Part shown: piece by piece, positions 25,283-47,748 of the stretch
Layout of the letters: the number at the start of each line of letters is the position of its first letter
Numbering within the stretch: the stretch's first letter is position 1
Assembly (NCBI RefSeq): GCF_010671595.1
Contig: NZ_JAABOP010000001.1
Location: 1,612,001-1,676,000 of the forward strand
DNA: 64,000 nt
Direction of reading: 5' to 3'
Source of the DNA: Muriicola jejuensis
GTDB taxonomy: Bacteria > Bacteroidota > Bacteroidia > Flavobacteriales > Flavobacteriaceae
Program-made: the position numbers and the translations under genes
Notes under the pieces: generated by a model
Database searches by the model: none
Seen by the model: only the letters and a program-made list of their open reading frames with translations
Told to the model about the DNA's origin: nothing

Positions 25283-26710
25283 TCAATTTAGGGTACTGCT
25301 CAAGGCGTAAATATAATCGTAGATCGGGCTGTAGAGTCCGAGTGCTAGGATCCCGATCACGGTGATCACAAGTCCGATCCTCATATAAACCGTATTGGTG
25401 AAATAGGGGATGGGATGCTCGCTTTTGCGGAGGAACATGGCCCGTACCACCAGCAAATAATAATAGAGTGAGATCGTGACATTGACCACGGCCAGGAAGA
25501 CCAGAAAGTAATAGCCCTTGCTGGCTGCAGCCGTGAAGAGGAAGAACTTGCCGAAAAAGCCTGCAACGGGGGGTATTCCGGCCAGGGAGAACAACCCGAG
25601 CATCATCACCAGACTCAATTTTGGATTGGTGCGATACAGCCCTTCATAATCCTGAAGTTGCTCTTTGCCCGTTTCTGTGGAAATGGCCTGCACGACGCCA
25701 AAAGCAGCGAGATTGGAAAAAATATAGATCAATATAAAGTAGATCACGGTGGCCACACCCAGAGTAGTTCCTGTGATCAGACCCAGGAGAATAAATCCTG
25801 CCTGGGCGATGGAGGAAAAGGCCAGGAATCGCTTCATATTCTGCTGGCGCAGGGCGAAGAGGTTCCCGAGGAACATGGTCAGTACGGACAGAAGATAGAA
25901 CAGGTTTTCCCATAGGTGCATAAGCGGTTTTAAGACCGTAAAGAACAGGATCATCAGGATAAAAATGGCCGCTCCCTTTGAAATGACCGACAGATAGGAC
26001 GCAATCCCGATTGGCGCCCCTTCGTACACGTCGGCGGTCCAGAAATGGAAGGGAACCAGGGATATCTTGAATCCCAGTCCGGCAAAGAACAGGATCATGG
26101 CAAGGACGGTGAGGGGGTTCTCCGAGATCGCCCCTTGCAATTCCGCATAGTATATGGAACCGGAGGAGGCGTAAAGGAGGGAGATCCCGAAAAGTGTGAT
26201 GCCGGAAGCCAGGGCAGAGGAGAGGATAAGCTTGATCCCCGCCTCACTCGAACGCATACGGTATATCTCAAAGGCTGCAAGGGCTGCCAGGGGCAGAGTG
26301 GATAATTCCAATCCCAGGTAGAACATCAGGAAATCTCCTGAGGAGATCAGGAACTGAAGCCCGAGGAGGGAGGATAGCATCAGGATAAAGAATTCAGTAC
26401 CCCGGTTCTGGGGGATGAGTTCTTTCTTCACCCATTCGGCCGACTGCAACAGTACGATAAGTACACCCAGGTTCAGGATGTTCTTGAACATATGGATGAG
26501 GGCATTGGTTCGGAACATGCCCCCAAAGAGCTCGCCTTCCTTCATGTCCATAAATCCAAGGGCGGTATGAAGGCCAAACAGAACGATGGCAAGTGACACT
26601 ACTCCTGCCCTGTTTCGATCATTGGCAAAGATCTCGAAGAGTAGGAGGACCAGTGCAATGAGCAGGAGGGATACTTCCTGTCTGAGCAATAAAAGGGTTT
26701 CCATATCCAT
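25283..26710 (-). CDS. nuoN: NADH-quinone oxidoreductase-type complex I, subunit N
   Basis: This 475-aa antiporter-like proton channel subunit of the complex I membrane arm has about 14 helices. It carries the Lys/Glu residues typical of the Mrp-antiporter-like fold and LSLVMMLGLFSLAGIPPVAGFFGKFFLF near residue 360. It is the last complex I gene of an 11-subunit set. A second in-frame ATG lies two codons downstream. Confidence 0.95.
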   Translation of the reverse strand: MDMETLLLLRQEVSLLLIALVLLLFEIFANDRNRAGVVSLAIVLFGLHTALGFMDMKEGELFGGMFRTNALIHMFKNILNLGVLIVLLQSAEWVKKELIPQNRGTEFFILMLSSLLGLQFLISSGDFLMFYLGLELSTLPLAALAAFEIYRMRSSEAGIKLILSSALASGITLFGISLLYASSGSIYYAELQGAISENPLTVLAMILFFAGLGFKISLVPFHFWTADVYEGAPIGIASYLSVISKGAAIFILMILFFTVLKPLMHLWENLFYLLSVLTMFLGNLFALRQQNMKRFLAFSSIAQAGFILLGLITGTTLGVATVIYFILIYIFSNLAAFGVVQAISTETGKEQLQDYEGLYRTNPKLSLVMMLGLFSLAGIPPVAGFFGKFFLFTAAASKGYYFLVFLAVVNVTISLYYYLLVVRAMFLRKSEHPIPYFTNTVYMRIGLVITVIGILALGLYSPIYDYIYALSSTLN

Positions 26711-26722
26711 GGTTCCGGGCTT

Positions 26723-28210
26723 TTATAATACCCCCTGTATAAAGGGTTGTATACTTTGTAAAATCATCTCACTCAGCCATAGGGGTGCCACCCCAATCCC
26801 AATAATGGGGAGCAGCATCAAAAAGATACCCGCCTTTTCGTACCAGGTGGCCCGTTCCATAGGCGTGAGGGAGTTCTCTTTCAGCGGCCCCATCAGCATC
26901 ATTCCCACTACCCTCAGGATGTAGACTGCGGTCACCACGATGGCCGACACGGCAAAAATGGAAGCGATCCGGTAAGAAATCTCCGGGTGCTGGAAAGCTC
27001 CCACAAAGATGTTCATCTCGGCCACGAATCCGCTGAAACCTGGAAGACCGAGGGAAGCGAGCCCACCTATCACGTAGGTCGCCGAAATGAATGGGATCAC
27101 CTTCAGCAGGCCTCCTAGCCTGGTTACATCTCGAGTGTGGGTCCGTTCGTAGATCATCCCGATCAGGGCAAAGAAAAGGGCGGTCATAAAGCCGTGGGAG
27201 AGCGACTGAATAATGGCGCCGTTCCAGGCGGTTTTGTTGAGCATCAGCAAGGCAAAAAGGACAAGTCCCAGGTGACTTACAGAAGAATAGGCGTTGATGT
27301 ACTTCAGGTCGGTCTGCCTGATGGCGGCAAACGCCCCGTAGATTACCCCAAAGGCGGCGAGAACGATAAAGAACCAGGACCAGTGCAGGGTTCCTTCCGG
27401 CATAAGGTACATGGCCACCCTGAAAACTCCATAGCCCCCCAACTTCATCAGTACGCCTGCATGCAGCATGGAAACGGCGGTAGGAGCGGAGGCATGACCA
27501 TCCGGGGACCAGGTATGAAAGGGGAAAAGGGCCCCTATCACCGCAAACCCGATGAAGGTAAGAGGAAAGAAAAGCTTCTGTGCCTCTACCGGGATCTGCA
27601 CCTTGGCGATCTCGAGTATATTAAAGGTCAGAGGTCCACCGTCTGCCCCGGAATTGAAATAGATCCCCAGAATGCCCACCAGTAAGATAGCAGAAGCTCC
27701 CATCAGCATCAGGGTGAGCTTCATCGCGGCGTATTCCCGGGGTCCGGAACCCCAGATACCGATAAGCAGGAACATGGGGATGACCGCTATTTCAAAAAAT
27801 ACGAACATGAGGAAGAGGTCCAGGGATATAAAGAACCCGTATACCCCGGTAGAAAGGACGATGAGGGAAATAAAGAATTCCCTGGGGAGTTCTTCCATCT
27901 TCCAGGAAATAAATACACCTGCCAGGACGACCAGGGAGGTCAGTATGAGCAAGGCCACGGAGATCCCATCCACCCCTATACTGTAATGGATATTGAAGTC
28001 TTTAAACCAGACGAGGTCCCGGGTAAAGAGCATGATCTCATCATTGACCGACCTTTCCCTGAGATAGGCGAAGAGGAGGTTCACAGACATGCCTACCTGC
28101 ACAATGGTGCCTGCCAGGGCGATCAGACGAGCCTGTTTCAGGGATTTCGCACCGAGGAGTACGAGGACCGTTAGCAGGGGAAAAACTATAAACAACGATA
28201 AAATATCCAT
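26723..28210 (-). CDS. nuoM: Complex I subunit M
   Basis: This 495-aa antiporter-like subunit is recognisable from IGVDGISVALLILTSL (about residue 78), FPFHTWSPDGHASAPTAVSMLHAG (about 225) and AYSSVSHLG (about 305). It pumps protons in the distal part of the membrane arm. It lies 12 bp upstream of nuoN and 10 bp downstream of nuoL. Confidence 0.96.
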   Translation of the reverse strand: MDILSLFIVFPLLTVLVLLGAKSLKQARLIALAGTIVQVGMSVNLLFAYLRERSVNDEIMLFTRDLVWFKDFNIHYSIGVDGISVALLILTSLVVLAGVFISWKMEELPREFFISLIVLSTGVYGFFISLDLFLMFVFFEIAVIPMFLLIGIWGSGPREYAAMKLTLMLMGASAILLVGILGIYFNSGADGGPLTFNILEIAKVQIPVEAQKLFFPLTFIGFAVIGALFPFHTWSPDGHASAPTAVSMLHAGVLMKLGGYGVFRVAMYLMPEGTLHWSWFFIVLAAFGVIYGAFAAIRQTDLKYINAYSSVSHLGLVLFALLMLNKTAWNGAIIQSLSHGFMTALFFALIGMIYERTHTRDVTRLGGLLKVIPFISATYVIGGLASLGLPGFSGFVAEMNIFVGAFQHPEISYRIASIFAVSAIVVTAVYILRVVGMMLMGPLKENSLTPMERATWYEKAGIFLMLLPIIGIGVAPLWLSEMILQSIQPFIQGVL

Positions 28211-28220
28211 AGGCTTAGCC

Positions 28221-30140
28221 TTATGAGGTCCACAAATAAATAAATAGAATGGCCAGCAGGACGGTCCCGCTCACAAAGGCCATAGCGTAATCCTGTACCC
28301 GGCCGGATTGCATTCCTTTTATCTTTCTCGAGAGCACCACGGTCGAATTTCCGATGAGGTTCATGGTCCCGTCCACAATATTCCGGTCGAACCAGGCCGC
28401 TCCTGCTGCAATGCCTTTAAAAAGAATGTTCTTTGTGACGAACAGGTAGAGTTCATCCACATAGAATTTCTGGTGTGCCCAGGTATAAAGCACGCCCAGC
28501 CGGTCTGTCAATCGGGAGACCATTTCACTTTCTTTTTTATAGAGGATCCAGGCAACACCAAGGCCCAGGAGAGCCACCGCTACAGCCACTATGGCCATGG
28601 GGATGTCTATATGACCTTCGAATCCTGTCCTGTCCGGACTTATGAACGAACTGAAGGGAATAAATCCTACCGTAGCGCTGAGTACCGCCAGTACGACCAG
28701 GGGGAAGGTCATGGAGGAGGGCGACTCATGGGGACTGTGTTCGTATGCCTTGTTCTTTCCCCAAAAGATCCCGAAATAGATCCTGAAGATATAGATGGCG
28801 GTAAGGCCCGCGACCAGGATCCCTATGCCGTATAGGAAGGTATTGTGTTCAAAGACGGCTACCAGGATCTCATCCTTGCTCCAGAAGCCTGCAAAAGGAG
28901 GGATCCCCGCTATCGCAAGGGCGGCGATCAGGAAGCTGATGTGAGTGACAGGCATGTATTTCCTCAGTTGTCCCATGTCCTTTAACTCGTTGCTGTGTAC
29001 CGCATGGATGACCGAACCGGCACAGAGGAACAGCAGGGCTTTGAACATGGCATGGGTGAACAAATGGAACATGGAAGACATGTACCCTAGTCCCTCACTG
29101 CCTTCATATCCGGAAACGCCCAGGGCGAGCATCATATACCCCAGCTGGGACATGGTGGAATAGGCCAGCACCCTCTTGATATCCGTCTGAGTAAGGGCGA
29201 TGACCGCAGCGAATAAAGCCGAAAACGCTCCGACGAAGGCGACGATCTGGAGGGCAAATCCGTCCTCCACAAAGAAATACATAGGGAACAAACGGGCTAC
29301 CAGGAAGACACCTGCAACCACCATGGTGGCCGCGTGGATCAGGGCAGAGACGGGGGTGGGTCCTTCCATGGCGTCCGGGAGCCAGATATGGAGGGGGAAC
29401 ATAGCCGATTTACCCGCTCCCCCGATAAAGATCAGGATCAAGCCCCAGGTGAGTACGGAAAGCCCCATAAAAGAGGCCGGTGCCCAGTTCGATAGGATGG
29501 CTCCTCCCGGATCGTTCAGGGCCCCAAAATCGTAGGTACCTGTGTAGTAGCCGATCAGGAGTATGCCGATCAGAAACCCCAGGTCGGCAAAACGGGTCAC
29601 GATAAAGGCCTTCTTGGCGGCTGCCACAGCAGATTCCTTTGTGTAGTAATAACCGATCAGGAGGTAAGAGGAAACCCCTACCAGTTCCCAGAAAATGTAT
29701 ATCTGAAAGAGGTTGGTCGCAAGTACCAGGCCGAACATGGAAAAGGTAAAAAGGGAGAGGAAGGAAAAGAATCTGGTATACCCTTCATCCCCTTTCATAT
29801 AGCCCCTGCTGTAGATATGGACCATCAGTGAGACGGTGGATACCACGATCAGCATCATGACCGAAATGGGATCGATCAGTACACCCATATCGATCCTCAA
29901 AGTGTCTGTGAAATTCATCCAGACCACCGACTCAACAAGGGTCGGGTAGGCTCCCGAGACCTTCCCGACGACCCCGAAATACTGATAGGCGGTGTAAAAG
30001 GAGAGAACGGTGCTCAAAAGTATACCGCTAACTCCAATCAAACCGGATACAGCGGGGCCTATCTTCCTGTTCAAAAGGCCCAGGACCAGAAAGACCGCCA
30101 GGGGGATGAGGGGGATCAGGATGATAAGGCTGTAATTCAT
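28221..30140 (-). CDS. nuoL: Complex I subunit L
   Basis: This 639-aa largest antiporter-like subunit carries the long C-terminal amphipathic (lateral) helix expected for NuoL. Motifs include FPLHIWLPDAMEGPTPVSALIHAATMV (about residue 250) and LAYSTMSQLGYMMLA (about 325). It lies 12 bp downstream of nuoK. Length and order are typical. Confidence 0.96.
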   Translation of the reverse strand: MNYSLIILIPLIPLAVFLVLGLLNRKIGPAVSGLIGVSGILLSTVLSFYTAYQYFGVVGKVSGAYPTLVESVVWMNFTDTLRIDMGVLIDPISVMMLIVVSTVSLMVHIYSRGYMKGDEGYTRFFSFLSLFTFSMFGLVLATNLFQIYIFWELVGVSSYLLIGYYYTKESAVAAAKKAFIVTRFADLGFLIGILLIGYYTGTYDFGALNDPGGAILSNWAPASFMGLSVLTWGLILIFIGGAGKSAMFPLHIWLPDAMEGPTPVSALIHAATMVVAGVFLVARLFPMYFFVEDGFALQIVAFVGAFSALFAAVIALTQTDIKRVLAYSTMSQLGYMMLALGVSGYEGSEGLGYMSSMFHLFTHAMFKALLFLCAGSVIHAVHSNELKDMGQLRKYMPVTHISFLIAALAIAGIPPFAGFWSKDEILVAVFEHNTFLYGIGILVAGLTAIYIFRIYFGIFWGKNKAYEHSPHESPSSMTFPLVVLAVLSATVGFIPFSSFISPDRTGFEGHIDIPMAIVAVAVALLGLGVAWILYKKESEMVSRLTDRLGVLYTWAHQKFYVDELYLFVTKNILFKGIAAGAAWFDRNIVDGTMNLIGNSTVVLSRKIKGMQSGRVQDYAMAFVSGTVLLAILFIYLWTS

Positions 30141-30152
30141 AGGTCGGTCTTT

Positions 30153-30470
30153 TTAATATTTCATGGTTTCCACATCCCTGACTTCCACGGAACTGATCTT
30201 CCTGTACAGATTAATGATGATAGAGATCGCCAATGCGGTTTCGGCAGCGGCGACGGCGATGATGAAAATGGAGAAGATCATGCCCTGCAGTACGTCCGGA
30301 TACAGGTATTTGTTGATCACGACAAAATTGACCGCCCCGGCGTTGAGGATAAGTTCCACGGAAATGAGCACGGAGATCAGGTTCTTACGGGTGATAAAGC
30401 CGTAAATGCCTATAAAGAACAGGATGGACGTAACGGTCAGCAGTTCGTAAATGGATATGCCTTCTATCAT
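30153..30470 (-). CDS. nuoK: Complex I subunit K
   Basis: This 105-aa protein has three transmembrane helices and the buried Glu in SVELILNAGAVNFV (about residue 37) needed for proton translocation, and a second Glu in AVAAAETALA. Its start overlaps the nuoJ stop by 4 bp (ATGA). Confidence 0.95.
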   Translation of the reverse strand: MIEGISIYELLTVTSILFFIGIYGFITRKNLISVLISVELILNAGAVNFVVINKYLYPDVLQGMIFSIFIIAVAAAETALAISIIINLYRKISSVEVRDVETMKY

Positions 30471-30991
30471 TTCACCTCGTTTTTATTCTCTGATAATTTG
30501 GTGCCTTTCGCGATCACAATGGCTCCTACCATGGCGGCCAGCAGCAATACGCTGATCACTTCAAAAGGAAGGATAAACCCGCCTTCTCCATAATCGAGCA
30601 ATTTGGCTCCAATAACGGATACCTCTGTTCCCGGGCCGGGACCTGATACCTGGAAATCATAGGTATAGATCACCGAAAGGAAGGCAGCCAGCCCCAGGGA
30701 GCAGGCCAGGGCGGTGAGCAGTTGCCTGGTGGGCCTGGCGATCTCCATACGCATCTCAATATGGTGGACGAGCAGGACGGAAAAGATGATCAGGACGATG
30801 ATCCCCCCGGCATAGATCGTGAGCTGGATCGCCGCAAGGAAGTTGTAATCCATCATAAAATATACCCCGGCCACGGCACAGAGCACAAACAGAAGGTAGA
30901 TCACCGAGCGCAACATCCTCCTGCTCATCACGGAGGCAAGGGCAAAACCGATCATGATCAGGGCGAGGATATAAAAGAGGATTCTTTCCAT
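30467..30991 (-). CDS. nuoJ: Complex I subunit J
   Basis: This 174-aa membrane subunit has five helices. The third carries the pi-bulge region YAGGIIVLIIFSVLL (about residue 61) that gates proton transfer. It lies between nuoI (4 bp gap) and nuoK (4 bp overlap). Confidence 0.94.
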   Translation of the reverse strand: MERILFYILALIMIGFALASVMSRRMLRSVIYLLFVLCAVAGVYFMMDYNFLAAIQLTIYAGGIIVLIIFSVLLVHHIEMRMEIARPTRQLLTALACSLGLAAFLSVIYTYDFQVSGPGPGTEVSVIGAKLLDYGEGGFILPFEVISVLLLAAMVGAIVIAKGTKLSENKNEVK

Positions 30992-30995
30992 AGGC

Positions 30996-31472
30996 TTAAT
31001 CTTCTACACCCTGCATGAGTGTGGATCCGGGTTTGTTGAGCACTCGTGTGAGGGTTGACCTGTCATACACCGAATTCTCGAAGTTCTGCCCCCATTTGAT
31101 GGCATCATGCGGGCAAACGTCTATACAGAGCCCGCACATGGTACACATGCTCAGGTGATATACGAATTGGTCTATTTTCTTCTTCTTTTTCCCCGTTGCC
31201 TCATCGATGCCCCGGTCCCATATGATCTCGATGGTGCCATTGGGGCAGGCGATCTCACATTTCTGGCAACCCGTACACCGGTGTTCATTGTCATCGGTGT
31301 GGGGCATGATCACCTCCCCCCTGAACCTTTCGAACATTTGGAGAGTATCCCGGTTGTCCGGGTACTGCTGGGTGATGGCCCCTTTTCTGGAAGTGACGAA
31401 GTATTTGCCCGTCACGCTCATCCCGGTCAGAAGGGTCTTTATGCCTTTATAGATATCAGAAAAGTAGCTCAT
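30996..31472 (-). CDS. nuoI: Complex I subunit I (two [4Fe-4S] clusters)
   Basis: This 158-aa ferredoxin-like subunit has two CxxCxxCxxxCP motifs (CTGCQKCEIACP and CTMCGLCIDVCP) that hold clusters N6a and N6b. They pass electrons from the peripheral arm to NuoB. In complex I variants without the NADH module this subunit and NuoB lie nearest the entry point for ferredoxin. There is no extra extension. The gene lies 3 bp after nuoH. Confidence 0.94.
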   Translation of the reverse strand: MSYFSDIYKGIKTLLTGMSVTGKYFVTSRKGAITQQYPDNRDTLQMFERFRGEVIMPHTDDNEHRCTGCQKCEIACPNGTIEIIWDRGIDEATGKKKKKIDQFVYHLSMCTMCGLCIDVCPHDAIKWGQNFENSVYDRSTLTRVLNKPGSTLMQGVED

Positions 31473-31475
31473 ACG

Positions 31476-32546
31476 TCATAGTCTTAGCGTTAAGTTTAGC
31501 CATACCAGGAGGGCCATCAGAACCAAATTCACCAAATTTATGGGAAGCAGGTACTTCCACTCCAGGGTAAGCAGCTGATCTACCCTCAGCCTGGGGAAGG
31601 TCCAGCGGAACCACATCATCAAAAAGACAAGGGCCATGGTCTTGAGCAGGAACCAGAAAACACCCAACTCGGGAATAGATTCCGTTATTCCGAAAGGGGA
31701 GAGCCAGCCGCCGAAGAATACCGTGGCCGCGATAGCCGAAATGATAAACATGTTTATAAATTCCGCCAGGAAGAAATAAGCAAATTTCATCCCTGAATAT
31801 TCCGTGTGGAACCCCGCACCTAATTCCGATTCGGCCTCTACCATATCGAAGGGTGCACGGTTGGTCTCTGCCGTTCCTGAGATCATGAATACCATAAAGG
31901 CGATGGCGGCAGGGATATGTCCCTGCAGGATCAGCCAGCCACTTTTTTGAACCTCAATGATCTCCGATAATTGAAGGGATCCCGTAATCACGACCATGGT
32001 CAGGAGGGAGAGCCCTACAGAGAGCTCATAGCTTATGGTTTGGACCCCGCTCCTCATAGCACCGATCAGGGCGTACTTATTGTTGCTGCTCCAGCCTCCC
32101 AGCAAGATACCGATGACCCCTATGGACGAAATAGCGATCAGGAAAAAAATACCGATGTTGATGTCGAAAGCATGGAATTCTGCTGAAAAGGGTATGACCG
32201 CCAGTGCCATCAGGGCGGAGATGATGACGAAATAGGGAGCCAGGTTATAGAGGAACTTATCGGCTTTTTCCGTTCCGGTGAGCTCCTTGGTCAGGAGTTT
32301 GATAGCGTCGGCCATGGTCTGCAACAACCCCTGGGGCCCGACCCTGTTCGGGCCTATCCTCAGCTGGAACCAGGCCGCAACCCTTCGTTCCAGCAAGACC
32401 AGGAACAGGCCTGCAACCGCAAAAATGGTGAGGTATACCACGGCTATAAGGGTCATTTCCACCAGGCTGGCCACGCCCTCGGGCATGACGCTGAAGAGCC
32501 AGTTGTGTATATTCTCCGTGATTCTCAATGGCATCATTTCATTCAA
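31476..32546 (-). CDS. nuoH: Complex I subunit H
   Basis: This 356-aa membrane subunit holds the quinone channel and links the two arms. Recognisable segments are ERRVAAWFQLRIGPNRVGPQG (about residue 53) and TNRAPFDMVEAESELGAGFHTEYSG (about 230), including the conserved Glu residues of the E-channel. In this operon it directly follows nuoD, where nuoE, F and G would usually stand. Confidence 0.96.
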   Translation of the reverse strand: MNEMMPLRITENIHNWLFSVMPEGVASLVEMTLIAVVYLTIFAVAGLFLVLLERRVAAWFQLRIGPNRVGPQGLLQTMADAIKLLTKELTGTEKADKFLYNLAPYFVIISALMALAVIPFSAEFHAFDINIGIFFLIAISSIGVIGILLGGWSSNNKYALIGAMRSGVQTISYELSVGLSLLTMVVITGSLQLSEIIEVQKSGWLILQGHIPAAIAFMVFMISGTAETNRAPFDMVEAESELGAGFHTEYSGMKFAYFFLAEFINMFIISAIAATVFFGGWLSPFGITESIPELGVFWFLLKTMALVFLMMWFRWTFPRLRVDQLLTLEWKYLLPINLVNLVLMALLVWLNLTLRL

Positions 32547-33668
32547 TTAACGGTCAATATCGGGTATGACGAGATCCAGGGTGGCCATCGTAGCCACCAG
32601 GTCTCCAATTTTTCCACCCACGGCGATATGGTTTAACAGGGACAGGTTGGAAAATCCCGGGGATCGGAATTTGAGTCGGTACGGGTTCTTCGTGCCCGTG
32701 CTGATAATGTACACCCCGAGTTCTCCCCTGGCCGTCTCCACCTTTTGGTAGTATTCTCCCTTCGGCAATTTTATGACTGCATTCGTGGCTACCCTGTGTT
32801 CTCCTTCGGGAATATTGTCAATCAATTGTTCCACGATGGAGAGGGATTCCCACATCTCCTGTATGCGCACCAGGTAGCGCGCATAGGTATCGCCTTCGGT
32901 CCTCAGTGCCTCCTCGAAGGTGACCCTGTCATAGGCGCTGTAAGGATGGTGTTTACGCACGTCACAGGAATACCCCGAAGCCCTTCCCACAGGGCCGGAT
33001 GCGCCAAAGGAAATGGCGTCTTCCCTGCTCAGGACGCCGACACCCACGGTTCGTTTCTGAAAGATCACATTCCCGGTCAATAACCTGTCGTATTCGGGTA
33101 GTTTGGTCTTGAAGTGGGCCACAAATTCCTTTACCCTATTTACAAAGTTGGGATGAATGTCCAGCATGAGTCCGCCCGGCACGTTGTAATTCATGGTCAA
33201 ACGGGCCCCACAGGTCTCTTCCATGATGTCATTGATCATCTCCCTGTCCCGGAAACCGTAGAAATAGGTGGTCAGAGCCCCTACGTCCATGCCCATCACT
33301 CCCCACCACAAACAATGGGAGGCGATACGCGTAAGTTCTCCAATGATGGTTCGGATCACTTTTACCCTCTCAGGGATCTCCAGCTGCAGGGCATTTTCCA
33401 CGGCCAGGCAGACCGCTTCGTTGTTGATGTTGGCAGACAGGTAGTCCATGCGGTCGGTGAGGTGAACGATCTGCTGGTAACTGTCCCTTTCGCACATCTT
33501 TTCGATGGAACGGTGGATATATCCCAGGTCGGGTTCCACCTTTTTGATGATCTCACCATCGATGGTCAGCAGGAGTCTTAGCACGCCGTGGGTAGCCGGA
33601 TGCTGGGGCCCCATATTGATGAAGTATTCCTCGGATTTGAAATTGCTGTATAATACTTCGGTTTCCAT
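32547..33668 (-). CDS. nuoD: Complex I subunit D (49-kDa subunit)
   Basis: This 373-aa [NiFe]-hydrogenase-like subunit lines the quinone site. It shows MGPQHPATHGVLRL (about residue 19), the quinone-site GYIHR and the C-terminal SPGFSNLSLL. It is a separate gene rather than a fusion with nuoC. Gap to nuoC is 6 bp; nuoH starts immediately afterwards. A normal length of about 370-400 aa. Confidence 0.96.
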   Translation of the reverse strand: METEVLYSNFKSEEYFINMGPQHPATHGVLRLLLTIDGEIIKKVEPDLGYIHRSIEKMCERDSYQQIVHLTDRMDYLSANINNEAVCLAVENALQLEIPERVKVIRTIIGELTRIASHCLWWGVMGMDVGALTTYFYGFRDREMINDIMEETCGARLTMNYNVPGGLMLDIHPNFVNRVKEFVAHFKTKLPEYDRLLTGNVIFQKRTVGVGVLSREDAISFGASGPVGRASGYSCDVRKHHPYSAYDRVTFEEALRTEGDTYARYLVRIQEMWESLSIVEQLIDNIPEGEHRVATNAVIKLPKGEYYQKVETARGELGVYIISTGTKNPYRLKFRSPGFSNLSLLNHIAVGGKIGDLVATMATLDLVIPDIDR

Positions 33669-33674
33669 GGGCGC

Positions 33675-34136
33675 TTAATGTAAGATCATATTGACATCGT
33701 CTTCATAGTCCTTTCTCAGAGGAAATCCTTCCCAGTCCTCGGTCAAAAAGAGGCGTTTAAGATTTGGATGGTTCGTGAATCTGATACCAAAAAAGTCGAA
33801 TACCTCCCTTTCGTGGAATTCGGCTGTTGCCCAGATATCGGAAACCGAATCAAATTCGGGGTTCTCCCTGTCGGCTGTATAGACCTTTACCACGAGCATA
33901 TGCCTTTTGGTTGTTGATTCGAGGTGGTAGACCACCCCTAATTCTTCACCCCAGTCTACCCCGGACAGGCAAAACAGGTAATCGAAGCGGGTATCGGGAT
34001 GCTCCCTGAGCTGCTGCATCAGAGCGTGAAGGTTTTCAGGGGGTACTTTGATATTGAGGAACTGCGATTCCTCAGAGGTGAATTCCAGTTCCTGGAACCA
34101 GCTCCCGATCAGGTCTTGTAAGGCTTCATGGGTCAT
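33675..34136 (-). CDS. nuoC: Complex I subunit C (30-kDa subunit)
   Basis: This 153-aa peripheral subunit has the family signature ATAEFHEREVFDFFGIRFTNHPNLKRLFLTEDW in its last third (about residues 106-138). The C-terminus FPLRKDYE is typical. It helps to anchor NuoD and NuoI. It lies between nuoB (11 bp gap) and nuoD (6 bp gap). Confidence 0.95.
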   Translation of the reverse strand: MTHEALQDLIGSWFQELEFTSEESQFLNIKVPPENLHALMQQLREHPDTRFDYLFCLSGVDWGEELGVVYHLESTTKRHMLVVKVYTADRENPEFDSVSDIWATAEFHEREVFDFFGIRFTNHPNLKRLFLTEDWEGFPLRKDYEDDVNMILH

Positions 34137-34147
34137 AGGTTCAATTT

Positions 34148-34702
34148 TTATAGGCCTTCGTCAAACCCCTCCACGGGATTCTTTTTTTCTTTCCTGTTTT
34201 CTTTTCGGATCTTGTCCTGCAACATCAGCATGCCTTCCAGGAGCGCCTCAGGTCTCGGAGGACAACCGGGGACATAGACGTCTACGGGAATGACGTGGTC
34301 TGCACCTTTGACCACGGAATAGGTGTTGTAAAAGAAGGGGCCTCCGGAAATAGCACAGGCCCCCATTGCGATCACGTAGCGGGGTTCTGCCATCTGTTCG
34401 TACAGACGCCTTAACACAGGGGCCATTTTATTGACTATGGTCCCGGCGATAATGATCAGATCGGCCTGTCTGGGTGAAGGACGGGCCACCTCGAAACCAA
34501 AGCGGGAATAATCATGCCTGGCTGCTCCGGTCTGCATCATCTCAATGGCACAGCAACTGGTCCCGAAATACAGAGACCACAGGGAATTGGACCTTCCCCA
34601 GTTGATGATCTTGTCGAGGTTGGTCACCACGACATTAGCCCCGTTCCCGGCCGGGATCACTTTTCCGGGAAAATCCTCCGGTATTTTCTGCGATTCGTTC
34701 AT
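34148..34702 (-). CDS. nuoB: Complex I subunit B (cluster N2)
   Basis: This 184-aa subunit binds the terminal cluster N2, which reduces quinone. The ligand cysteines are visible in [18 protein letters not shown] and PGCPPRPE. The start is set at ATG 34702, which overlaps the nuoA stop (ATGA); longer in-frame starts would run further into nuoA. With no nuoE, F or G in the operon, NuoB, C, D and I form the whole peripheral arm encoded here. Confidence 0.95.
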
Positions 34703-35049
34703 TTCCATTTCAAAGCTCCTTTTTTCCATGCGTATAATAGTCCCAGCCCCAGGATAAAGAGGAAGATCAGGACCTCGACAAATGCTATGGCCCCTATTCC
34801 CTTATATGCCACTGCCCAGGGGACCAGGAAGGCGATCTCTACATCGAAGACCAGAAAGAGGATGGCGAAGAGGTAGTACCCGACCTTGAACTGTACCCAG
34901 GTAGGCCCTATGGTGGTCATCCCACTTTCGTAAGGCGCCCTTTTGGCATCGCTGTCGGATTTGGGTGAGATCAGATTCGACAGGAAATTAGCCCCGGTGA
35001 CGAGCACTACGCCTGCCAAAAAGAATACGATAATTGCTTCTGATCCCAT
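34699..35049 (-). CDS. nuoA: Complex I subunit A
   Basis: This 116-aa protein has three membrane helices and the conserved loop [14 protein letters not shown] (about residue 30) followed by [14 protein letters not shown]. It lies 17 bp downstream of korB with no room for an independent promoter, so the complex I genes are read from the kor promoter. Confidence 0.95.
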
Positions 35050-35066: not shown

Positions 35067-36077
35067 TCATTTAATATCATAGGTATCCCCGGAGAAAAAG
35101 AGGTCATTGGTCTTCCTGAAAGAAGAGTTGGATTTTACCTGAATGGTAAGGGCATCTTCCCTCTCCTCGAAGGTAACATCCTCAAAACTACGGATGATAC
35201 CGGTAACCATCGGATATTCGAGCCTGACCAGCATCTGGTGCAGGGTGGGATCCTGTTCTTTGGCATCGTGCACAAGGATATCTGATTCCTCAATCCCATT
35301 CTCACCAATAGTTGCCACTTCAAGGCGTAGGCCTTTCAGGACCAACCCCTTATCCCGGACTTTTCCGAAGATCATGGGTTTGCCGTGTTCCACAAAGAGC
35401 TGCCTGTCCTCACGCACTGCCTTGTCAGTGTATTTCGCAAAGCACCCATCATTAAAAATAGGGCAATTCTGCAGTACCTCCACCAGGGCGGTACCCTTGT
35501 ATTTTTCGGAGGCTATAAAGATGTCCGTCATCTCCTTGGGGGTATTTCCGCCAATCCTGGCAAAAAATCGGGCCTGTGCCCCCAGGGCGAGTTCTCCCGC
35601 TGAAAAAGGCGGTTGCGTATTTCCGTAAGGGGAGGACTTGGTCTTCTGCCCAACCAGGGAGGTTGGGGAGAACTGGCCCTTGGTGAGGCCGTAGATCTCA
35701 TTGTTGAACAGGATGATATTGAGATCGAGGTTCCGGCGGAGTACGTGTATGAAATGGTTCCCGCCAATGGCCATGGAGTCTCCATCTCCGGTGATCACCC
35801 ATACGCTTAGTTTTGGATTGGCGAGTTTTACGCCTGATGCTATAGCGGTGGCCCTCCCATGGATGCCGTGCATGCCGTAGGTATTCATGTAATACGGGAA
35901 GCGGGAGGAACATCCGATCCCTGAAATAAAGACGATATTTTCCTTCTTCACCCCGATCTCAGGCAGTGCCTTTTGTACAGATCGCAAGATCACATAGTCG
36001 TCACACCCCGGACACCAGCGCACTTCCTGGTCGCTCGCAAAGTCTTTGTACGTGTATTCCTGAACGGCTGTTTCCAT
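35067..36077 (-). CDS. korB: 2-oxoacid:ferredoxin oxidoreductase beta subunit
   Basis: This 336-aa TPP- and [4Fe-4S]-binding subunit, with its alpha partner, oxidises a 2-oxoacid (probably 2-oxoglutarate) to acyl-CoA and reduces ferredoxin. Cluster ligands are Cys22 and Cys25 (WCPGCDD), Cys56 (GIGCSS) and Cys205 (NCPIFNDGC). TPP binding is by GDGDSMAIGG (97-106) and NNE (125-127). It lacks ferredoxin-like cluster domains, as in the two-subunit Kor enzymes of aerobes such as Mycobacterium and haloarchaea. It is sandwiched between korA (2 bp) and nuoA (17 bp). Confidence 0.92.
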   Translation of the reverse strand: METAVQEYTYKDFASDQEVRWCPGCDDYVILRSVQKALPEIGVKKENIVFISGIGCSSRFPYYMNTYGMHGIHGRATAIASGVKLANPKLSVWVITGDGDSMAIGGNHFIHVLRRNLDLNIILFNNEIYGLTKGQFSPTSLVGQKTKSSPYGNTQPPFSAGELALGAQARFFARIGGNTPKEMTDIFIASEKYKGTALVEVLQNCPIFNDGCFAKYTDKAVREDRQLFVEHGKPMIFGKVRDKGLVLKGLRLEVATIGENGIEESDILVHDAKEQDPTLHQMLVRLEYPMVTGIIRSFEDVTFEEREDALTIQVKSNSSFRKTNDLFFSGDTYDIK

Positions 36078-37988: not shown

Positions 37989-37996
37989 CAAATTTA
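37989..37996 (-). promoter_or_regulatory. -7 element of the kor-nuo operon
   Basis: The minus strand reads TAAATTTG, a perfect TAnnTTTG. Its first T is 29.5 bp from the centre of the palindrome at 38020-38031. There is no usable -33 TTG, consistent with activator dependence. Confidence 0.7.
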
Positions 37997-38018
37997 ATTT
38001 CTGGATAATCAAGGAAAC

Positions 38019-38032
38019 ATGATTTTTATCAT
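38019..38032. promoter_or_regulatory. Crp/Fnr-like palindrome shared by korA and ferredoxin promoters
   Basis: ATGAT-TTTT-ATCAT is a perfect 14-bp inverted repeat with FNR-type spacing (FNR consensus TTGAT-N4-ATCAA). It stands at about -40 from the predicted start of both divergent transcripts, the class II activator position. Confidence 0.7.
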
Positions 38033-38054
38033 TAAATTAGGAGAAGAGGTTATC

Positions 38055-38062
38055 TACTTTTA
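38055..38062 (+). promoter_or_regulatory. -7 element of the ferredoxin promoter
   Basis: TACTTTTA differs from TAnnTTTG only in the last base. Its first T is 29.5 bp from the centre of the upstream palindrome, the same distance as for korA. An identical TACTTTTA lies at the same distance in front of nifJ. Confidence 0.6.
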
Positions 38063-38087: not shown

Positions 38088-38438
38088 ATGGCTATTATAA
38101 TCACAGACGAATGCATTAACTGCGATGCCTGTATCTCGGAATGTCCCAATAATGCGATCTACGAACCGGACCAGGAATGGTCGTACTCTGATGAAACCGC
38201 TTTATCCGGCACAGTGACGACTCCTGGTGGGGCAGAGGTGGACGCTGATGCTGAGAATGAACCTATATCGGATGAATTCTACTACATTGTTCCCGACAAG
38301 TGCACGGAGTGTAAAGGATTCCATGATGAACCTCAATGTGCCTCCGTCTGTCCGGTAGATTGTTGTGTTCCCGACGATAATCATGTAGAAACGGAAGACC
38401 AGCTGCTCCAAAAGAAAGCCTGGTTGCACGGGGAATAA
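38088..38438 (+). CDS. 2[4Fe-4S] ferredoxin with acidic insertion
   Basis: This 116-aa low-potential ferredoxin has cluster I ligands Cys9, 12, 15 and 19 (CINCDACISECP) and cluster II ligands Cys72, 75, 84 and 88 with an 8-residue gap between the second and third (CX2CX8CX3CP). The enlarged second loop is the feature of Chromatium-type ferredoxins, which have very low potentials. About 40 residues of acidic sequence (Asp/Glu-rich, residues 27-66) separate the clusters, and two more Cys (92 and 93) follow. It is divergent from korAB-nuo and precedes nifJ, so it is the natural carrier between the oxoacid oxidoreductases and complex I. Confidence 0.93.
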   Translation: MAIIITDECINCDACISECPNNAIYEPDQEWSYSDETALSGTVTTPGGAEVDADAENEPISDEFYYIVPDKCTECKGFHDEPQCASVCPVDCCVPDDNHVETEDQLLQKKAWLHGE

Positions 38439-47135: not shown

Positions 47136-47155
47136 CTGATATTAATCATAGTTAC
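47136..47155 (+). promoter_or_regulatory. Crp/Fnr-like site upstream of the DoxX gene
   Basis: CTGATATTAATCATAGTTAC contains the perfect palindrome TGAT-ATTA-ATCA (centre 47142.5). Flanking C and TAGTT are shared with the nifJ and tonB sites. Confidence 0.65.
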
Positions 47156-47171
47156 TCTGGGTCTTTGCCTT

Positions 47172-47179
47172 TAGTTTTG
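47172..47179 (+). promoter_or_regulatory. -7 element of the DoxX-Gfo/Idh operon
   Basis: TAGTTTTG is a perfect TAnnTTTG starting 29.5 bp from the centre of the palindrome. Predicted leader about 70 nt. Confidence 0.65.
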
Positions 47180-47253: not shown

Positions 47254-47748
47254 ATGACCGAATTACTACAAAGGGAACCATTGCTTAAAAGCGTGGTTTT
47301 TTTGCGTATTCTCATCGGGTGGCACTTTCTGTATGAAGGGGTCATCAAACTTTTTAATCCCGACTGGACTGCCTTCGGATACCTGGCTACGGCCCAGGGT
47401 CCCTTCAGGTCGCTTTTTATCGCTCTCACAGGGGAAGGGACCATCGGGTGGGTGGATACGCTGAACACGATCACCCTGATCTTTATCGGAATTACCCTTA
47501 TCCTCGGAATTTTCGAAAAATGGGGAGCTATCGCAGGGATGGTCCTTCTGCTGATGTACTATTTTGCGCATCCCCCCTTTCCGTGGCTCGAACAGCGCAA
47601 CGTAGAAGGGAGTTACTGGTTCGTCAATAAGAATCTGATAGAGCTGGCCGCCTTGTGGGTATTGTACCAGATTCCTACCAGTTCGTATTTCGGACTGAAT
47701 TACCTCCTTAAAAGAGAACACAAAACCATCAAAACCCCTCAATCATGA
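47254..47748 (+). CDS. DoxX-family membrane protein
   Basis: This 164-aa protein has four membrane helices and the DoxX-type start VVFLRILIGWHFLYEGVIKL (residues 13-32). DoxX-family proteins are membrane components of oxidoreductase systems, sometimes quinone-linked. Its last codons overlap the start of a Gfo/Idh oxidoreductase (ATGA), a pairing I recall from Bacteroidota; it may help to re-oxidise that enzyme or shuttle electrons. It is under a promoter with the Crp/Fnr-like site. Confidence 0.83.
   Translation: MTELLQREPLLKSVVFLRILIGWHFLYEGVIKLFNPDWTAFGYLATAQGPFRSLFIALTGEGTIGWVDTLNTITLIFIGITLILGIFEKWGAIAGMVLLLMYYFAHPPFPWLEQRNVEGSYWFVNKNLIELAALWVLYQIPTSSYFGLNYLLKREHKTIKTPQS

Follow-up and report, generated by a model that had tools for sequence, protein, structure and literature searches.

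The 154-bp region between the divergent korA and ferredoxin genes of Muriicola jejuensis carries a palindromic box that is very likely the site of an FNR-like activator of the CRP family, placed at -41.5 (class II) from two divergent sigma-A promoters and belonging to a putative low-oxygen regulon. The box lies in the window, i.e., the whole stretch of 64,000 nucleotides analysed here, which is part of a 3.3-Mb genome. Flavobacteria are usually thought of as aerobes; this assignment would supply a large bacterial family with a putative regulon for low oxygen, for which a box, a spacing rule, a candidate regulator and predicted transcription starts are available. A wider reading is possible, and we put it forward tentatively: Flavobacteriaceae may possess a low-oxygen regulon, not described in the open-licence papers surveyed, in which it is common for a single dimer box at -41.5 to serve a symmetric pair of promoters, acting as a two-way selector with competing polymerases. 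Such a box would be read either by an FNR-like protein with a relocated fourth cluster cysteine or by a fusion of a receiver domain with a CRP-type protein, the recognition helices of the two sharing Glu and Ile-Arg.

A palindrome stands at the same distance from two divergent -7 elements

The features of the korA/ferredoxin region are collected in Table 1. The genes korAB and nuoABCDHIJKLMN share a strand, and neighbours are either 0-17 bp apart or overlap, so that a single korAB-nuo transcript is expected in M. jejuensis. The eleventh complex I gene (25283-26710) was named from its position and look only. The complex I operon behind korAB contains no nuoE, nuoF or nuoG, and a search for the NuoF family across the genome gave no match, a result in keeping with ferredoxin as electron donor to this complex I. 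A second ferredoxin copy (68% identical) is found at L111 (G000:C19:190538-190885); the 5.5-kb stretch around this copy has no box unit.

Direct reading of the sequence confirmed that, as the earlier note had claimed, the palindrome ATGAT-TTTT-ATCAT is flanked on each side by a -7 element 29.5 bp from its centre. The centre falls at 38025.5; the first T of the korA-side element lies at 37996, and the ferredoxin-side element starts at the same distance in the other direction, its last base (-5) being A in place of G. No other perfect 5-4-5 palindrome exists in the intergenic region. By itself it means little, since dinucleotide shuffling of this AT-rich region yields at least one in 30.9% of cases (n=5000), a frequency that would suit a palindrome arisen by chance. 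The palindrome together with both -7 elements (at most one mismatch) at the observed spacing was recovered in 0.02% of the shuffles (1/5000). When up to two mismatches are allowed, ATGATN4ATCAT has 73 matches on both strands of the window compared to 40 expected from shuffles.

According to PMC9723704, the element TAnnTTTG occupies positions -12 to -5 in promoters of F. psychrophilum and flavobacteria. With the first T at -12 and the palindrome centre 29.5 bp upstream of it, the box is centred at -41.5 for both genes, and both sides thus show a class II position relative to the predicted starts, i.e., near -41.5 and at a fixed distance from a core promoter element. The E. coli FNR protein prefers class II (PMC3688515): of the 23 promoters that it activates and whose start is known, 19 carry the site at -41.5 ± 4. 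The transcription starts proposed earlier, 37985 and 38066, were near the mark, each being one base short of the position that the TAnnTTTG register gives (Table 1; PMC9723704). A scan for E. coli-type sigma-70 promoters was uninformative here, with 3 promoter-like sites compared to 2.7 in shuffles. The palindrome might alternatively act as an RNA hairpin or attenuator. Against this, both predicted starts lie downstream of the box, and neither RNA would therefore contain it.

Table 1. Features of the korA/ferredoxin region and further loci; positions refer to the window unless a locus handle precedes them
Feature	Position	Strand	Remarks
complex I genes, order A, B, C, D, H, I, J, K, L, M, N	25283..35049	-	Pfam for first ten
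korB, 2-oxoacid:acceptor oxidoreductase beta subunit	35067..36077	-	TIGR02177, 240 bits, below cut-off 261.9
korA, 2-oxoacid:acceptor oxidoreductase alpha subunit, 617 aa	36080..37933	-	TIGR03710, 654 bits, above cut-off
predicted korA transcription start	37984	-	51-nt leader; from TAnnTTTG at -12 to -5 (PMC9723704)
-7 element TAAATTTG, korA-nuo promoter	37989..37996	-	predicted -12 to -5; plus-strand letters CAAATTTA
candidate activator box of FNR/CRP type, ATGATTTTTATCAT (ATGAT-TTTT-ATCAT)	38019..38032	both promoters	family form TGAY-N4-RTCA
-7 element TACTTTTA, ferredoxin promoter	38055..38062	+	one mismatch to TAnnTTTG
predicted ferredoxin transcription start	38067	+	21-nt leader; from TAnnTTTG at -12 to -5 (PMC9723704)
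4Fe-4S dicluster (YfhL-type) ferredoxin gene	38088..38438	+	NF033683, 98.8 bits, above cut-off
second box + 23 bp + TAnnTTTG unit	47137..47179	+	ahead of DoxX-like gene (47254-47748)
FNR-like protein, 229 aa	L100 4886-5575		
apparent receiver-CRP/FNR fusions	L252 2361-3410; L253 2019-3074; L254 1596-2645; L255 2327-3370		

Box and spacing are conserved at flavobacterial korA loci

From 80 named flavobacterial korA loci we counted the 73 in which a ferredoxin gene diverges from korA at a distance of no more than 300 bp and left out the other 7. The exact box TGAY-N4-RTCA is present in 70 of these 73 and missing from 3, with 0.64 expected from shuffles; this comparison and those that follow overstate the evidence in terms of the number of events, because the relatives are not independent. 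The korA-side -7 element (at most one mismatch) stands at exactly 23 bp from the box in 67/73 loci (shuffles 0.02). Both elements are found at exactly 23 bp in 40/73 loci (shuffles 0), and in 56/73 when the ferredoxin side may be at 22-23 bp (shuffles likewise 0), 17 loci failing the two-sided test. A comparison of nine genus/family sequences showed that the box letters ATGA and TTATCA (10 of 14 positions) are invariant and that most positions separating the box from the -7 elements vary. The conservation is the evidence that decides that the palindrome with its two -7 elements is beyond chance; set against this conservation and the fixed spacing, a chance palindrome or an RNA hairpin has a negligible probability.

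The two sides differ in their constancy. On the korA side, the gap profile has 67 cases at 23 bp and 0-7 at any other gap; on the ferredoxin side, 52 cases are at 23 bp, 16 at 22 bp and 0-5 at each remaining gap. One mismatch in the -7 element occurs in 43/70 loci on the ferredoxin side versus 7/70 on the korA side, and the ferredoxin-side -5 base is A for G in 24/61. The ferredoxin-side -7 is the weaker and less constant of the two elements. These mismatches, the boxes with a gap of 22 and the loci that fail the two-sided test would suit a class II site for korA only, in which case the ferredoxin-side -7 would be incidental and the ferredoxin gene under another promoter or constitutive. We consider this unlikely: the ferredoxin-side element is retained at 22-23 bp in 56/73 loci, with none expected, its gap distribution has a peak at 23, and symmetric boxes recur across the family (see below). 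The box is therefore better read as an activator site shared by both promoters.

Whether complex I, as consumer, joins this unit depends on the genome. The gene korB follows korA in 80/80 named loci, and nuoA follows korB in 56 of the 75 with enough flank. Co-transcription is expected in M. jejuensis, as the earlier note had assumed, and the linkage is common but not universal in the family. Many of the 19 loci without nuoA behind korB keep the shared box (e.g., L182, L199, L217, L224, L235, L247), which argues that the unit is built around Kor and ferredoxin.

Symmetric shared boxes recur in the family

We searched 149 family genomes for the two-sided pattern (-7 element, 23 bp, box, 23 bp, -7 element; up to two mismatches) and used the reversed pattern as a control. 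The search returned 247 matches in 101 genomes, compared to 11 matches of the reversed pattern. When the gap was held at 23 on one side and allowed to vary on the other, the free gap is 23 in 72 among the 150 matches listed, and other gaps occur 0-13 times. The korA/ferredoxin arrangement is thus one case of a recurring layout.

The neighbours of symmetric sites were read at 30 of the 247 loci (one per genome) and named by comparison with M. jejuensis genes. The pair korA and ferredoxin flanks the site at two of the 30 loci, with ferredoxin alone at a third. Further recognised pairs are a small nos-operon gene opposite an Rrf2 gene and ccoI opposite the gene of the FNR-like protein; an unnamed gene lies across from hemN and another across from a Usp gene. 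Many neighbours are unnamed, and at 4/30 loci the site overlaps an ORF. In G135, a gene that by eye resembles the DoxX-like gene of the window faces a shared symmetric box (L159).

Further box units define a putative low-oxygen regulon

In the M. jejuensis genome, the exact pattern of box, 13-33 bp and TAnnTTTG has five matches, three of them at gap 23. Across 60 genomes (M. jejuensis included), gap 23 accounts for 58 among the 150 matches listed, and each of the other 20 gaps for 0-9. When one mismatch is allowed, the box-23-TAnnTTTG unit occurs at 24 sites in M. jejuensis (reversed-pattern control 0) and at 18-33 sites in each of nine genus genomes (controls 0-3). An ORF on the same strand follows within about 390 bp at 22 of the 24 M. 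jejuensis sites; three of these (L094, L098, L106) overlap the 5' end of an ORF that is listed from its first possible start. The two sites inside ORFs (L097, L109) are probably due to chance. Among 148 genomes across the phylum, the unit is densest in Flavobacteriaceae, with 6-44 sites. A few genomes of the same class come near that density (e.g., G274 with 23 and G299 with 22 sites), and other classes have 0-9 sites.

The genes at these sites point to low oxygen. One site is near a metal-transporting P-type ATPase gene that we took as ccoI, the closest family scores being below cut-off; the cbb3 genes behind it were named by look. Another is at hemN (above cut-off), which is followed by a Usp-like gene. 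Shared boxes separate the nosZ operon (nosZ above cut-off; its first gene encodes a small protein, by look a cytochrome c) from an Rrf2 gene, and the [NiFe]-hydrogenase small subunit gene from a HypB-like gene. Sites are also found at Usp genes in two further places, one of which was confirmed by Pfam, as well as at ferritin, at the korA/ferredoxin pair (shared box) and at several uncharacterised genes. Oxygen limitation would thus be linked with KorAB, ferredoxin and a complex I that has no recognisable NADH module, beside a Sec-dependent nosZ and a hydrogenase. Likewise, the Anr/DNR and FixK regulons of Proteobacteria are low-oxygen regulons with cbb3, hemN and denitrification genes; they differ in phylum and in sigma factor, and the candidate regulator of M. 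jejuensis lies beside a ccoI-like gene.

PMC9723704 reports that cbb3 oxidase and haem-synthesis genes rise under oxygen limitation; the words Fnr and Crp are absent from its main text. Among the titles and abstract openings listed from the open-licence literature, none concerned an FNR box or regulon for Flavobacteriaceae.

At the box shared by nosZ and Rrf2 (L101 7738-7780), the DNA that separates the box from the Rrf2-side -7 element contains a second palindrome-like sequence, GGATA...TATCC. Judged from its letters, it may be an operator for Rrf2 itself. Strings similar to L101 7738-7780 are present in G002, G005, G006 and G008.

An FNR-like protein is encoded beside the ccoI-like gene

Four proteins with a cNMP-binding domain (PF00027) are encoded in the M. 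jejuensis genome. The gene of one of them and the ccoI-like gene point away from each other on either side of a box. This protein has the sensor domain of the CRP family and a Crp-type HTH, both above the Pfam cut-offs (cNMP_binding, PF00027; HTH_Crp_2, PF13545). It matches solved FNR-type regulators with E values of 9e-23 to 8e-22 and aligns over residues 4-226 with the one that we take to be the FNR of Aliivibrio fischeri; its best structure match is 2gau, a Crp/Fnr family regulator in the PDB (1e-26). The best NCBIfam match, Fnr PRK11161, reaches 102.8 bits and thus stays below the curated cut-off of 228. Four cysteines (alignment columns 9, 12, 58 and 111) are invariant in 30/30 orthologues from 30 genomes. 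The CxxC motif and the central Cys of the M. jejuensis protein align with FNR cysteines, the usual third N-terminal position is Asn, and the invariant Cys at column 58 is off the usual FNR ligand position, so that the placement deviates from the canonical four-cysteine pattern. Because of this deviation and the curated score, we call the regulator FNR-like and not FNR proper. We infer that it senses oxygen via an Fe-S cluster.

The recognition helix of the FNR-like protein reads VGTATESCIR, and ATES or ATEL as well as the R are kept through the 30-row alignment. It therefore has the Glu and Arg of the FNR recognition helix, the residues that read TGA. A box is found within 260 bp upstream of 27/30 genes for FNR-like proteins (0.76 expected), and in 24/30 it is accompanied by a -7 element directed away from the FNR-like gene (0.005 expected). 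Unlike the korA element, this -7 element usually is without the first T (CATCTTTG, AACCTTTG and alike; L112-L141). The median number of sites in excess of control is 13 in the 41 genomes with a match to the FNR-like protein at E<=1e-40 and 1 in the 19 genomes without (p=7e-6). G020, G028, G034 and G055 have such a match yet only 3-4 sites.

The box might instead belong to another CRP-family protein (L037, L038 or L039) or to a catabolite-type sensor of cAMP or nutrients. The presence of four PF00027 proteins in the genome leaves room for this, the recognition helix of L039 likewise has E-x-x-T-R, and some site-rich relatives have no ccoI-linked protein. The nearest published case, a Flavobacteriales CRP/FNR homologue from a bioreactor community, is treated as MalR-like in PMC8510549. 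We hold a different owner to be improbable, since the box precedes the ccoI-linked gene in nearly all genomes compared, none of the 24 M. jejuensis units lies ahead of L037, L038 or L039, and the targets include cbb3, hemN, nosZ and hydrogenase genes. The most plausible regulator of the box in the M. jejuensis genome is thus the protein beside ccoI.

Proposed mechanism and relation to known systems

In the proposed mechanism, falling oxygen would lead a dimer of the FNR-like protein, whose gene adjoins the ccoI-like gene, to occupy ATGAT-N4-ATCAT. From there it would bring RNA polymerase to the TAnnTTTG of either side, taking over the role of a -33 element. The leftward output would be korAB-nuoABCDHIJKLMN and the rightward output the ferredoxin gene, with the cbb3 cluster, hemN, nosZ, [NiFe]-hydrogenase, Usp and ferritin as proposed further members of the regulon. 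By analogy, the mechanism would be of a known kind and work like an FNR class II promoter pair. In the earlier note, one bound dimer was suggested to activate both promoters together. The first part is strongly supported by our computations, which established the box and its spacing at -41.5 on both sides, its conservation, the further sites in the genome and the widespread recurrence of symmetric boxes. As to the second part, the promoters may instead be used in turn, since a polymerase on one side of the dimer may keep out one on the other side. Simultaneous use by two polymerases placed so closely is sterically doubtful, and the box probably activates both promoters by alternating use.

The FNR box is TGAT-N4-ATCA, and the flavobacterial box is spaced alike; the outer base of the FNR half-site TTGAT is not kept. 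In common with FNR of E. coli and A. fischeri, the M. jejuensis regulator has a CRP fold and a homologous sequence, and its box is centred at -41.5. The flavobacterial system differs from that of E. coli in its promoters of the Bacteroidota type (TAnnTTTG) and in a regulator that does not reach the NCBIfam Fnr cut-off and carries one of its cysteines at another position. A single bound CRP dimer serving two opposite promoters was reportedly tested in E. coli by El-Robh and Busby in 2002. Compared to such CRP-driven divergent promoters, the flavobacterial layout is natural and exactly symmetric, and it is present in about two thirds of the family genomes. With its recurring symmetric boxes, the family provides a natural setting in which to ask whether a single class II activator can serve two promoters at once or must alternate.

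Box-rich relatives carry apparent receiver-CRP/FNR fusions

Four genomes, G005, G015, G030 and G035, have 19, 22, 12 and 19 sites, respectively, without a clear orthologue of the FNR-like protein. The G005 assembly is fragmented (400 contigs, 93% complete, 9% contamination). Proteins of about 350 aa with a receiver-type N-terminus and a CRP-family C-terminus are encoded in G015 (two), G030 and G035, and Pfam confirms the fusion domains for the G035 protein and for one of the two in G015. A sensor-kinase-like gene adjoins the fusion gene in 3/4 stretches (L252-L254); the one in G015 has PAS and kinase domains by Pfam. The recognition helices of the fusions (ATESLIR, ASETLIR, TTESLIR and STESFIR) are similar but not identical to the ATESCIR of the FNR-like protein, with Glu and Ile-Arg kept, which again speaks against the rival owners of the box named above. 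Since box-rich genera without the FNR-like protein carry apparent fusions with a similar helix, the protein that reads the box may differ from genus to genus.
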